Assembly (NCBI RefSeq): GCF_000373625.1
Contig: NZ_KB891987.1
Coordinates: 797,081-861,080, forward strand
DNA length: 64,000 nt
Reading direction: 5' to 3'
Source: Streptomyces sp. LaPpAH-108
Lineage (GTDB): Bacteria; Actinomycetota; Actinomycetes; Streptomycetales; Streptomycetaceae
Made by a program: the position numbers and the translations under genes. The notes under the pieces were generated by a model that did no database searches, was not told where the DNA came from, and saw only the letters and a program-made list of their open reading frames with translations. Below are positions 19,841 to 24,510 of the stretch, in pieces (within the stretch, counting starts at the first letter, position 1; every line of letters begins with the position of its first letter).

Positions 19841-21247
19841 ATGTCGGTAGGCGAAGAGGTCCGCACCGAGCAGGCCAAGCCGCAGCAGTCACTCGGCACG
19901 GCGGCGGCGCGGAACCTGGCCACCACCACCAAGTCCGCACCGCAGATGCAGGAGATCAGCTCCCGCTGGCTGCTGCGCAGTCTGCCCTGGGTCGACGTGA
20001 AGGGCGGCGCGTACCGGGTCAACCGGCGGCTGACCTACACCGTCGGGGACGGCCGTGTCACCTTCGTGAAGACGGGCGACCAGGTCGAGGTCATCCCGGC
20101 CGAGCTGGGTGAGCTGCCCGCCCTGCGCGACTACGAGGACGAGGAGGTGCTGACCGAGCTGGCCCGCCGCTGCCGCCAGCGCGACTTCGCGCCCGGCGAG
20201 GTGATCGCCTCCTTCGGCAGCCAGTCCGACGAGGTGTACCTCCTGGCCCACGGCAGGGTCGAGAAGATCGGCACGGGCCCGTACGGCGACGACGCGGTGC
20301 TCGGCGTCCTCGCCGACGGCGCCTACTTCGGCGAGCAGTCCCTGCTCGACCCGGACGCCATCTGGGAGTACACCGCCCGCGCGGACACCGCCTGCACGGT
20401 GCTGATCCTCGCCCGCCAGGACTTCGAGCAGGTGGCCGAGCGCGCCGACTCGCTGCGCGGCCACCTCCAGCAGCTGCGCTCGATCCCGGACCAGCGCACC
20501 AACAAGTACGGCGAGAAGGAGGTCGAGCTGGCGGCCGGCCACTCCGGCGAGCCCGACATCCCGCACACCTTCGTGGACTACGAGGCCCGCCCGCGCGAGT
20601 ACGAACTGAGCATCGCCCAGACCGTGCTGCGCATCCACACCCGCGTCGCCGACCTCTACAACCAGCCGATGAACCAGACCGAGCAGCAGCTGCGGCTCAC
20701 GGTCGAGGCGCTGAAGGAGCGCCAGGAGCACGAGCTGATCAACAACCGGCAGTTCGGCCTCCTGCACGCCTGCGAGTACGACCAGCGCATCCAGCCGCAC
20801 GACGGCGTCCCCGGCCCGGACGACCTGGACGAGCTGCTCAGCCGCCGCCGGGGCACCAAGTTCCTCCTCGCCCACCCGCGCGCCATCGCCGCGATCGGGC
20901 GCGAGCTGAACAAGCGCGGACTGGTCCCGGAGACCATCGACGTCGGCGGCAACCGCATCCCCACCTGGCGGGGCGTGCCGATCTACCCGTGCAACAAGAT
21001 CCCGGTCACCGAGGCCCGTACGACCTCGATCCTCGCCCTGCGTACCGGCGAGGCCGACCAGGGCGTCATCGGCCTCAGGCAGTCCGGCATCCCGGACGAG
21101 ATCGAGCCGAGCCTGTCCGTCCGCTTCATGGGCATCAACGAGCAGGCCGTCATCAACTACCTGGTCACCGCCTACTACTCGGCGGCCGTCCTGGTGCCGG
21201 ACGCGCTCGGCGTGCTGGAGAACGTCGAGATCGGCCGGTGGCGGTGA
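19841..21247 (+). CDS. eshA: EshA: family 2B encapsulin-type shell protein with cyclic-nucleotide-binding domain
   Basis: A 468-residue protein starting [10 protein letters not shown], 8 bp after GGGAGGG. An N-arm with [20 protein letters not shown] (17-36) and [17 protein letters not shown] (40-56) is typical of family 2 encapsulins (HK97-fold shells related to SrpI). A cyclic-nucleotide-binding domain occupies about 100-212 ([22 protein letters not shown]; phosphate cassette YFGEQSLL). The rest completes the shell fold (for example [18 protein letters not shown]). EshA proteins form large assemblies and were linked to ppGpp, antibiotic production and growth in Streptomyces. The next gene is a probable cargo enzyme. 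Confidence 0.9.
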
Positions 21248-21267
21248 CCTCGCGCCACCGCGCACCC

Positions 21268-21295
21268 GGGTTCCCGTCCCTCGGGGCGGGAACCC
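21268..21295 (+). terminator. Intercistronic hairpin between eshA and the prenyl synthase gene
   Basis: A 9-bp perfect stem (GGGTTCCCG with CGGGAACCC) and a 10-nt loop lies 20 bp after the eshA stop, with no U-tract. It may attenuate or process the message, so that shell protein is made in excess over cargo. Confidence 0.5.
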
Positions 21296-21365
21296 CTTCG
21301 GGGGGAGGGCCCGCCCGGCACCGTGCCGGACGGGACCACGCGCTCGCACGTCGGGAGGGGGAGCC

Positions 21366-22709
21366 ATGACCGAGTTCATGACACAGGCCGAACAGCGCCC
21401 GTCGGGCCCGGGGAAGACGGGCACGGGAAGGCCGGGGACGGGGAGCGCGGTCACGCCGCCGCGCCCGCCCGGGCAACGGGAGCCGGTGGAGGACACCGGG
21501 GGGCTCGACGGACGGAGACCGGCGGGAGACGCCGGGATGCTCGACGGGCGGGGACCGGCGGGGGACGCCGGGTCGTTCGACGGGCGACGGACGGCGGATG
21601 ACGCCAGGCCGCCCGCTGGAGGGGAGACGGCGGACAACGCGACGCAGCTCGACGAGGCGACCGAGGACGGTGGCGCGCTCGACGGGCAGGAGGCGACGGT
21701 TCTGCTGGAGCGGACCCGGGAGCTGGTGGACCCGGAGCTGCGCGCCGCGATCGAGTCGCTGCCCGGACCCCTGCGCCGTATCGCGCTCTACCACTTCGGC
21801 TGGCAGCACGCCGACGGCACCCCGGCGGCGGGCAACGCGGGCAAGGCGATCCGGCCCGCCCTCGTGCTCGCGGCGGCGTCCGCGCTGGGCGGACCGTCCG
21901 CCCGGGCGGCGGCGGTGCGGGCAGCGGCGGCGGTCGAACTGGTCCACAACTTCACGCTGTTGCACGACGACGTGATGGACCGCGACACCACGCGTCGCCA
22001 CCGCGCCACCGCCTGGACCGTCTTCGGCGACGCCGACGCGATCCTCGCCGGTGACGCCCTCCAGGCCCTCGCGCTGCGGCTGCTCGCCGACGACCCGCAC
22101 CCGGCGGCCGGACCGGCGTCGGCCCGACTCGCGGAGTGCGTCATCGAACTGTGCGCGGGCCAGCACACCGACACGGCCCTGGAGCAACGCGCCCCCACCG
22201 AGGTCGGGTTGGCCGAGGTGCTCACCATGGCCGAGGCCAAGACCGGCGCCCTCCTCGGCTGCGCCTGCGCCCTGGGCGCGCTGTACGCGGGCGCGGACGA
22301 CGCGGAGGTGGCGGCACTGGACGGCTTCGGCCGACAGGCGGGCCTCGCCTTCCAGTTGATCGACGACGTGATCGGCATATGGGGCGACCCACGGCGCACC
22401 GGCAAGCCGGTCGGCGCGGATCTGGTCGTCCGCAAGAAGTCCCTGCCGGTCGTCGCCGCGCTCACCTCCGGCACCCCGGCGTCCGCCGAACTCGCCGCGC
22501 TGTACGCCCGCCCGTACGCGGACGGGGACGGCGAGATCGCCCGCACCGCCCTGGCCGTGGAACAGGCGGGCGGCCGGGACTGGGCCCAGGCCGAGGCCGC
22601 CGACCGCATGGCCCGCGCCGTACAGGAACTCTCCCGCGCGGTTCCCGCCCCCGAGGCGGCGGGCGGCCTGCTGGCCCTGGCGGAATTCGTCACCCGCCGG
22701 ACCAACTGA
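21366..22709 (+). CDS. Polyprenyl diphosphate synthase with long disordered N-terminus, candidate encapsulin cargo
   Basis: A 447-residue protein behind GGGAGGGGGAG. Residues 1-115 are low-complexity, rich in Gly, Asp, Arg, Pro and Thr, with three 12-residue repeats at 45-80. The all-alpha isoprenyl diphosphate synthase fold follows: GKAIRP (159-164), the first Asp-rich motif DDVMD (201-205) and a variant second motif LIDDVIGIWGD. It should condense IPP with allylic diphosphates (GPP, FPP or GGPP). Family 2B encapsulins are often encoded next to terpene enzymes whose disordered N-terminal extensions direct loading; the tail here fits that role. Product length is unknown. Confidence 0.88.
   Translation: MTEFMTQAEQRPSGPGKTGTGRPGTGSAVTPPRPPGQREPVEDTGGLDGRRPAGDAGMLDGRGPAGDAGSFDGRRTADDARPPAGGETADNATQLDEATEDGGALDGQEATVLLERTRELVDPELRAAIESLPGPLRRIALYHFGWQHADGTPAAGNAGKAIRPALVLAAASALGGPSARAAAVRAAAAVELVHNFTLLHDDVMDRDTTRRHRATAWTVFGDADAILAGDALQALALRLLADDPHPAAGPASARLAECVIELCAGQHTDTALEQRAPTEVGLAEVLTMAEAKTGALLGCACALGALYAGADDAEVAALDGFGRQAGLAFQLIDDVIGIWGDPRRTGKPVGADLVVRKKSLPVVAALTSGTPASAELAALYARPYADGDGEIARTALAVEQAGGRDWAQAEAADRMARAVQELSRAVPAPEAAGGLLALAEFVTRRTN
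21498..21605 (+). repeat. 36-bp in-frame tandem repeat (3 copies) in the prenyl synthase gene
   Basis: Three 36-bp units encode GGLDGRRPAGDA, GMLDGRGPAGDA and GSFDGRRTADDA (consensus G-x-[LF]-D-G-R-x-x-A-x-D-A). A degenerate fourth, GGALDGQEA, lies at residues 102-110. They fall inside the disordered leader. Confidence 0.9.
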
Positions 22710-22828: not shown

Positions 22829-23788
22829 CTACGGGCAGGTGACGACCTGTCCGACCCAGGACAGGCCGCCGCCGAACGCGAGCAGCAGCACCGGGCCGCC
22901 GCTCGGGAGTTCACCGCGCTCGGTGAGCTTGGACAGGGCGAGCGGCACGGAGGCGGCGGAGGTGTTGCCGGACTCCACGACGTCCTGTGCGATCACCACG
23001 CTCTCGGGCAGGTCGAGTTGGCGCAGGACGGCGTCGATGATCCGCAGGTTCGCCTGGTGGGTGACCACACCGGCCAGGTCGGACAGGGCGAGCCCGGCCC
23101 GCGCGCAGGCATCCCGGGCGATGGCGGGGAGTTCGGTCGTGGCCCAGCGGAAGACGGTCTGGCCGTCCTGGGCGAAGCGCGGGTGCCAGTCGCCGACCAG
23201 TCGGACGGCGTCGCCCCGGCCGGGGTCCGAGCCCCAGGTGACGGGCCTGATCTCGGCGGCATCGGCGGTACTGAGCACGGCGGCGCCCGCGCCGTCGCCG
23301 AGCAGGACGCAGGTGCGGCGGTCGGTCCAGTCGGCGACGTCGGACATCTTCTCGACGCCGATGACCAGCGCGTTCCTGGCGGCCCCCGCGCGCAGGGAGT
23401 GGTCGGCGCAGGCGAGCGCGGTGCAGAACCCGGCGCAGCCGTTGTTGAGATCGAAGGCGACCGGGGAGGGCAGCCCGAGCCGCCCGGCGACCTGGGCGGC
23501 GATGGAGGGGCACCGGTCGACGGCACTGCACGTCGCCACGGTGATCATGCCGATGTCGGCGGGTTCGAGACCGGACGCGGCCAGCGCCTTGCTCGCGGCG
23601 GCCGTCGCCATGTCGGTCACCGACTCGTCCTCGGCGGCGATGCGGCGGGTGGCGATACCGGTACGGCGCCGGATCCACTCGTCGTCGGTGTCGACCATGG
23701 CGGCCAGGTCGTCGTTGGTCAGGACGCGTGCGGGCTGGTAGTGACCCAGCGCGGTGATACGGCTTCCCGGCGCGGCGGTGACGGGCAC
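22829..23788 (-). CDS. Beta-ketoacyl-ACP synthase III (FabH-like)
   Basis: A 319-residue thiolase-fold enzyme. The GTG start (VPVTAAPGSR) is preceded by GAGGAG at good spacing; an upstream TTG is less likely. The catalytic triad is visible: Cys in NNGCAGFCTALA, His in VTHQANLR and Asn in SGNTSAAS. It condenses an acyl-CoA starter with a malonyl-type extender. Standalone FabH paralogs in Streptomyces may serve fatty-acid priming or specialised metabolism. It stands apart from any fab operon and is divergent from a TetR regulator, which probably controls it. Confidence 0.88.
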   Translation of the reverse strand: MPVTAAPGSRITALGHYQPARVLTNDDLAAMVDTDDEWIRRRTGIATRRIAAEDESVTDMATAAASKALAASGLEPADIGMITVATCSAVDRCPSIAAQVAGRLGLPSPVAFDLNNGCAGFCTALACADHSLRAGAARNALVIGVEKMSDVADWTDRRTCVLLGDGAGAAVLSTADAAEIRPVTWGSDPGRGDAVRLVGDWHPRFAQDGQTVFRWATTELPAIARDACARAGLALSDLAGVVTHQANLRIIDAVLRQLDLPESVVIAQDVVESGNTSAASVPLALSKLTERGELPSGGPVLLLAFGGGLSWVGQVVTCP

Positions 23789-23831
23789 AGGTGATCTCCT
23801 CGGCTCGGCGTCGATGCCGCCGGAATATAGC

Positions 23832-23850
23832 AACCGACCGATCGGAAGTT
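23832..23850. promoter_or_regulatory. Probable TetR operator in the ketosynthase-regulator interval
   Basis: An imperfect dyad centred on CCGATCGG (23838-23845), flanked by AAC and GTT, lies between the divergent starts. Its size and position suit a TetR-family operator controlling both genes. Confidence 0.5.
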
Positions 23851-23871
23851 AAAGGAGGGCGGCTCGCTACG

Positions 23872-24510
23872 ATGGCTGCCATGAGCCCTCGCAAGTCCGC
23901 CGCCGAAGCCCGCCGAACCCGGCAGCGCATCGTCCAGCGCGGCATCGCCCTCGCCTCGGTCGACGGTCTCGAAGGACTCACCATCGGCCGCCTCGCCGCC
24001 GACCTGTCGATGAGTAAGGCGGGCGTACTCGGCCACTTCGGCACGAAGGAGGCTCTCCAGCTGGCAACCCTGGAGGGCGCGGCAGCGGAGTTCTCCCGCC
24101 TGGTCTGGGAGCCCGCCGCCGCCGAACCCCCGGGCCTGCCCCGCCTCCGCGCGATCTGCGATGCCTGGGTCACCTACCTCGAAACCGCCCGCGACATCTT
24201 CCCCGGCGGCTGCTTCTTCACCACGGCCTCCATCGAGTACGACGCCCGGACCGGCCCCGTCCGCGACACGGTCATCCGCCTCTCCCTCCTCTGGCGCCGC
24301 CGTCTCACCACCGAGATCCGCACAGCACTGACCTCCGGCGACCTCCCCCCGGACACGGACCCCGACCAGCTCGTCTTCGAACTGATGGGCCTTTACCTGG
24401 CCCTGAACCAGGAGATACAGCTCTTCGCGAACGCGGCAGCAGGCAGCCGGGCCCGGATCGCTTTGGATCGCCTGCTGGGCCCTCGCGCCTTGGAGGACAC
24501 TCCGGGTTAG
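23872..24510 (+). CDS. TetR-family transcriptional regulator
   Basis: A 212-residue protein (MAAMSPRKSA); the ATG at 23881 is an alternative. AAAGGAGGG lies upstream. The N-terminal HTH (IVQRGIALASVDGLEGLTIGRLAADLSMSKAGVLGHFG spans about 20-57, in several pieces) is canonical for TetR. The C-terminal TetR_C domain has the DARTGPVRD and LFANAAAG features of a subgroup seen near fatty-acid and acyl-CoA genes. Divergent placement suggests it represses the FabH-like gene in response to an acyl ligand; this is inference. Confidence 0.88.
   Translation: MAAMSPRKSAAEARRTRQRIVQRGIALASVDGLEGLTIGRLAADLSMSKAGVLGHFGTKEALQLATLEGAAAEFSRLVWEPAAAEPPGLPRLRAICDAWVTYLETARDIFPGGCFFTTASIEYDARTGPVRDTVIRLSLLWRRRLTTEIRTALTSGDLPPDTDPDQLVFELMGLYLALNQEIQLFANAAAGSRARIALDRLLGPRALEDTPG

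Follow-up and report, generated by a model that had tools for sequence, protein, structure and literature searches.

A polyprenyl-transferase-type family 2B encapsulin operon with a candidate prenyl synthase cargo in Streptomyces sp. LaPpAH-108

Family 2B encapsulin shell genes adjoined by a polyprenyl diphosphate synthase gene constitute the polyprenyl-transferase type (PT-type) of operon, of which 900 were listed in 2021 together with a description of the synthase N-termini (Andreas and Giessen, PMC8346489). The disordered N-terminus of these synthases was given there as 50 to 100 residues, with no targeting motif found (PMC8346489), and the gene most often found next to family 2b shells is one for a polyprenyl diphosphate synthase (PMC8049743). 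EshA proper (SCO7699), encoded in the 2-methylisoborneol operon (PMC5839063), is also a family 2B shell with an inserted domain, and S. venezuelae has the same operon (PMC6428758). Streptomyces lydicus has a two-component family 2B encapsulin with two shell genes in a xylulose kinase type operon, and solved family 2B shell homologues assemble into particles (PMC12407261). The S. coelicolor eshB gene is SCO5249, the promoter of which is reported to be up-regulated during development (PMC3878966).

Here, we describe a shell and synthase gene pair in Streptomyces sp. LaPpAH-108, within a 64,000-nucleotide stretch of contig NZ_KB891987.1 that we refer to as the window. The pair is an ordinary, already catalogued Streptomyces family 2B operon of the polyprenyl-transferase type, with the same two genes, gene order, and domains as the operons in PMC8346489, where the disordered synthase N-terminus was also noted. 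Nothing essential differs, although the 106-aa synthase tail in the window, with its 36-bp repeats, exceeds the usual length. The original prediction had described the pairing as less studied, which is at odds with the 900 listed operons, the commonest-neighbour status of the synthase, and the NCBIfam models that name both roles. Its shell, its candidate cargo, and its disordered, repeat-bearing tail stood, but its nucleotide gating, its use of the tail as a cargo hallmark, its view of the pairing as less studied, and the name EshA were not supported. As the pair itself was already known, the useful part of the present analysis is the correction of the gating and tail claims.

The gene pair and its linkage

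The features of the locus are as follows, all on the forward strand.

19841..21247 (+): family 2B encapsulin shell protein, 468 aa, most likely EshB/SCO5249-type by synteny and tree (NF041163, PF19307, PF00027, PDB 9bhu, PT-linked shell clade)
20180..20443 (+): inserted cyclic-nucleotide-type domain of the shell, residues 114-201, with W175-E176-Y177 replacing the phosphate arginine (PF00027; alignment with the Crp of the same genome)
20489..21238 (+): HK97-type (SrpI-like) shell domain, residues 217-466 (PF19307, 451 bits)
21366..22709 (+): encapsulin-associated polyprenyl diphosphate synthase, 447 aa (NF041169; nearest solved fold 3nf2)
21366..21683 (+): predicted disordered N-terminal tail of the synthase, residues 1-106, differing between species (pLDDT; tail comparison)
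21478..21634 (+): 36-bp tandem repeat inside the synthase tail, 4.3 copies, encoding LDGRxPAGDAG-like units (Tandem Repeats Finder score 133, 75% matches)

The two genes are co-linear, with an intergenic gap of 118 bp, and both reading frames are intact under table 11, so that the predicted extent of 19841-22709 is exact; the synthase ATG is preceded by a good ribosome site, GGGAGGGGGAG. Both genes score above the cut-offs of curated NCBIfam models. The shell matches NF041163 (family 2B encapsulin nanocompartment shell protein) with 771 bits against a cut-off of 400 over residues 17-466, and the synthase matches NF041169 (family 2 encapsulin nanocompartment cargo protein polyprenyl transferase) with 490 bits against a cut-off of 450. 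The family 2B shell and the adjoining prenyl synthase as its candidate cargo are thus both borne out.

Linkage of the two genes was assessed in a non-circular manner by using only the synthase model NF041169 to search 199 Streptomyces genomes and inspecting the upstream region afterwards. Matches above cut-off were present in 150 of the 199 genomes, and among 110 matches taken in score order, 108 have a same-strand shell gene ending no more than about 0.7 kb upstream of the synthase core. Only L202 and L211 depart from this pattern, and L211 lies at a contig edge. Viewed from the shell, the synthase is present in 77 of 79 loci (L009-L087), and a family 2B shell above cut-off is found in 118 of 121 Streptomyces genomes. 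This adjacency is not a matter of chance, as there is only a handful of shell-model matches per 5- to 12-Mb genome. No conserved third operon gene is kept downstream in all of the PT-type loci compared, and no shell-linked second enzyme is present in these loci. We note that L202 (G076 C2:286012-287007) is an encapsulin-type synthase above cut-off with no shell directly upstream, and that synthases beside the intact shells at L034, L027, and L054 match only in part or in two frames, which suggests frameshifted or degraded genes or assembly errors.

We favor, with a probability of roughly 0.8, a PT-type family 2B operon in which the shell assembles and houses a short-chain prenyl synthase. By analogy with solved homologues, the first gene product would most likely form a T=1, 60-subunit icosahedral HK97-fold shell, and the second gene would code for a short-chain trans-prenyl diphosphate synthase that is most likely the enzyme held inside it. 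An alternative is that the synthase is not cargo, but is co-transcribed with the shell and either cytosolic or docked on its outer face, feeding an unlinked enzyme in or near the shell. Such an arrangement is consistent with the single family 2B shell in this genome, with terpene cyclases located elsewhere, and with the close to half of paired synthases that have only ∼8 to 15 residues before the core and no common tag. However, it is made unlikely by the near-universal adjacency of shell and synthase, the family 2 precedents of cysteine desulfurase and terpene cyclase cargo (PMC8346489, PMC12407261), and the absence of a second shell-linked enzyme from the loci compared. No direct evidence of particle formation or cargo loading in a PT-type system was found in the cited literature. 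Physical encapsulation of the synthase is likely, and it is the best explanation for the conserved gene pair.

Genes beyond the pair contribute little to this unit. A FabH-type ketosynthase III gene (22829-23833, − strand) and a TetR regulator gene (23791-24510, + strand) are divergent, overlap, and adjoin the synthase, but are not kept in relatives and lie outside the shell-synthase unit; their pattern of presence suggests that they are probably a local insertion. The upstream genes are kept among relatives as chromosomal synteny. Two very large clusters in the downstream comparison are artefacts of overlapping GC-rich reading frames.

The shell paralogue and its inserted domain

The name EshA in the original prediction is inexact, as it belongs to the paralogue of the 2-methylisoborneol operon. 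A tree of 134 shells groups the PT-linked Streptomyces shells into a single clade of 76 rows (SH-aLRT 100), of which 73 are PT-linked and three have broken or missing neighbours; the shells linked to terpene cyclases (TC-linked) fall outside this clade, with 61 to 68% identity to the window shell. EshA (SCO7699) is tied to a terpene cyclase and a methyltransferase (PMC5839063, PMC6428758), whereas the window shell is PT-linked. The gene order is also shared with S. coelicolor eshB, with an epi-isozizaene synthase type gene, a SigB/F/G-family sigma gene, and the shell gene in succession. In S. coelicolor these are the epi-isozizaene synthase SCO5222 (PMC10301674), SigH (SCO5243; PMC9205884), and SCO5249; here they are an epi-isozizaene synthase type gene with a P450 gene after it (C1:790185-790775; L283 and L284) ∼26 kb upstream of the shell, a sigma gene at 14.2-15 kb of the window, and the shell gene. 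Because this spacing fits the SCO5222/SCO5243/SCO5249 order, the window shell is most likely the EshB (SCO5249) orthologue, an assignment made from gene order and the shell-tree clade.

The TC-linked shells L098, L114, L091, L153, and L277, together with their sister rows, branch next to the PT-linked Streptomyces shells as their sister group, and several of these sister shells without a detected cyclase may have 2-methylisoborneol synthases too distant for the query. A terpene cyclase partner for the window shell was considered and rejected, as the nearest is the epi-isozizaene synthase type gene, which is part of an independent known operon; together with its P450, it constitutes an albaflavenone-type operon.

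The shell protein has the expected family 2B architecture, with a cyclic-nucleotide-type domain (PF00027, 64 bits) placed between an N-terminal arm and the SrpI-like shell domain. This insertion into the shell fold is evident from both the Pfam matches and an alignment with the nearest solved shell, PDB 9bhu, which is full length over residues 7-467 (686 bits). PDB 9bix and 9bje are presumably the two S. lydicus shells. The S. lydicus two-component encapsulin has the same fold and inserted domain as the window shell, but the window genome holds a single family 2B shell. By comparison with the solved homologues, the cyclic-nucleotide-like domains would be displayed on the outside of the shell, over the two-fold pores.

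The presence of this domain underlies the proposal that the compartment is gated by cAMP, ppGpp, or another nucleotide, with the synthase loaded through its long tail. The PF00027 domain is real, and older reports, as cited in PMC6627660, link EshA to cAMP binding and ppGpp levels. However, alignment with the Crp of the same genome (GELIGELSLFDPGPRTATATA) shows that the window shell lacks the phosphate-binding arginine of the CRP-type cassette, with W175-E176-Y177 standing where the Crp segment FDPGPRTAT has its arginine. This is true of essentially every shell examined: 234 of 240 shells retain W175, and only five of the 240 have a lysine or arginine at positions 174-177. In addition, the insertion domain of family 2B shells is reported to sit over the two-fold pores and to bind no cyclic nucleotides (PMC12407261). 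With the phosphate arginine lost and cyclic nucleotide binding reported to be absent, cAMP gating is unsupported. As the S. coelicolor EshA work concerns a paralogue and the window gene is most likely EshB, the cAMP and ppGpp claims are not transferable to it untested. The synthase tail is moreover not conserved, and we regard gating by nucleotides with tail-mediated loading as highly improbable. As judged from the alignments, the inserted domain is a conserved element, probably a pore lid or a binder of some ligand that is not a cyclic nucleotide, and cyclic-nucleotide gating is not supported. Neither gating by a nucleotide nor a long tail at the N-terminus should be assumed to be how prenyl-synthase encapsulins work.

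The synthase core and its N-terminal tail

The synthase core is conventional. In addition to the NF041169 match, it has a Pfam polyprenyl_synt domain (PF00348, 190 bits) and two aspartate-rich motifs, DDVMD at 201, with a phenylalanine at the −5 position, and DDVIG at 333. The second motif is without its last aspartate, but all 27 diverse members compared share D333, D334, and G337. The predicted core matches 3nf2 (TM 0.93 by target, 46% identity), and the IdsB model gives 366 bits, under its cut-off of 475. By these sequence features the enzyme is of the archaeal/actinobacterial GGPP-synthase type. From its family, the enzyme would be expected to yield C15-C20 products, probably C20. Two further synthase relatives are coded by the same genome, with 398 and 192 bits on NF041169 (below the cut-off of 450), and the encapsulin-associated synthase is therefore probably not the housekeeping enzyme.

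Ahead of the conserved core is a tail of 106 aa rich in G, A, P, D, T, and R, in which the repeat units read LDGRRPAGDA, LDGRGPAGDA, and FDGRRTADDA. An AlphaFold prediction, made with an alignment of 27 shell-linked synthases, places residues 1-104 under a pLDDT of 50 and most of the sequence from residue 111 onward above 95, and the prediction of a disordered, repeat-bearing tail is thus upheld. Part of the disordered N-terminus described in PMC8346489 may correspond to the helices before the Pfam domain (residues 108-143 here), which are confidently folded in the model. The sister locus L008, with a 99% identical shell, has tail repeats differing from those in the window in both number and sequence.

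A long disordered N-terminus had been put forward as expected for encapsulated cargo, but long tails are restricted to one Streptomyces clade, and equally shell-linked relatives have only ∼8 to 15 aa before the folded core. Tail length in 190 dereplicated linked synthases has a median of 31 aa, a lower quartile of 11 aa, and a maximum of 172 aa, with start codons chosen by ribosome-site scoring such that single genes may be wrong. Hard upper bounds, obtained by counting open codons in frame upstream as far as a stop or the end of the shell gene, are no more than 15 codons for 14 of 191 genes and no more than 40 codons for 42 of 191. When 78 PT-linked shells are placed on a tree, 34 rows, nearly half, have tails of ≤15 aa, and these occur in every non-Streptomyces pair sampled and in two Streptomyces clades. 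The long tails are in a Streptomyces group of 47 rows (35 long, 9 mid, and 3 short), whose own branch support in this tree is only 93/46. Codons 10-25 of the long tails have a nonsynonymous difference in 84 to 86% of comparisons and are thus without amino-acid constraint. On these comparisons, the long tail is a derived, late, and freely varying addition in one Streptomyces clade that is not required for pairing, and it is weak evidence of cargo status. As many equally linked synthases are without it, loading cannot generally depend on a long tail.

No targeting motif common to all shell-linked synthases was found in the tails, although two segments recur among the 81 long tails. The first is a tail start of the form MxEFMTET, present in 43 of the 81 and also in the window tail, in which the codons show as little variation as the amino acids. 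The second is an ERRxPIGTQ-like segment in about 23 of the 81 (about 0 in shuffles), including L062, L056, L195, and L248, and absent from the window tail. Its nonsynonymous divergence is 0.38, compared to 0.71 and 0.77 in the flanks, a comparison biased by the segment having been picked by its pattern. We rejected a conserved tail targeting motif, as shared descent can account for both segments and neither is in all pairs. The ERRxPIGTQ-like segment is either a possible short linear motif amid a diverging tail or a product of shared descent.

It is conceivable, if somewhat doubtful, that loading occurs via the folded core or a very short peptide at the N-terminus, with one Streptomyces clade having added a fast-evolving, disordered, repeat-expanding tail that tunes packing inside the shell. 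If true, this would run against the present view, in which cargo is marked by its disordered N-terminus. The short- and long-tailed paired synthases provide a natural contrast and a direct route to the true loading signal. We also note an extreme repeat expansion in the shell-linked synthase of Streptomyces canus (L064), whose tail of ∼170 aa contains many head-to-tail copies of PETPPLHGPAPR.
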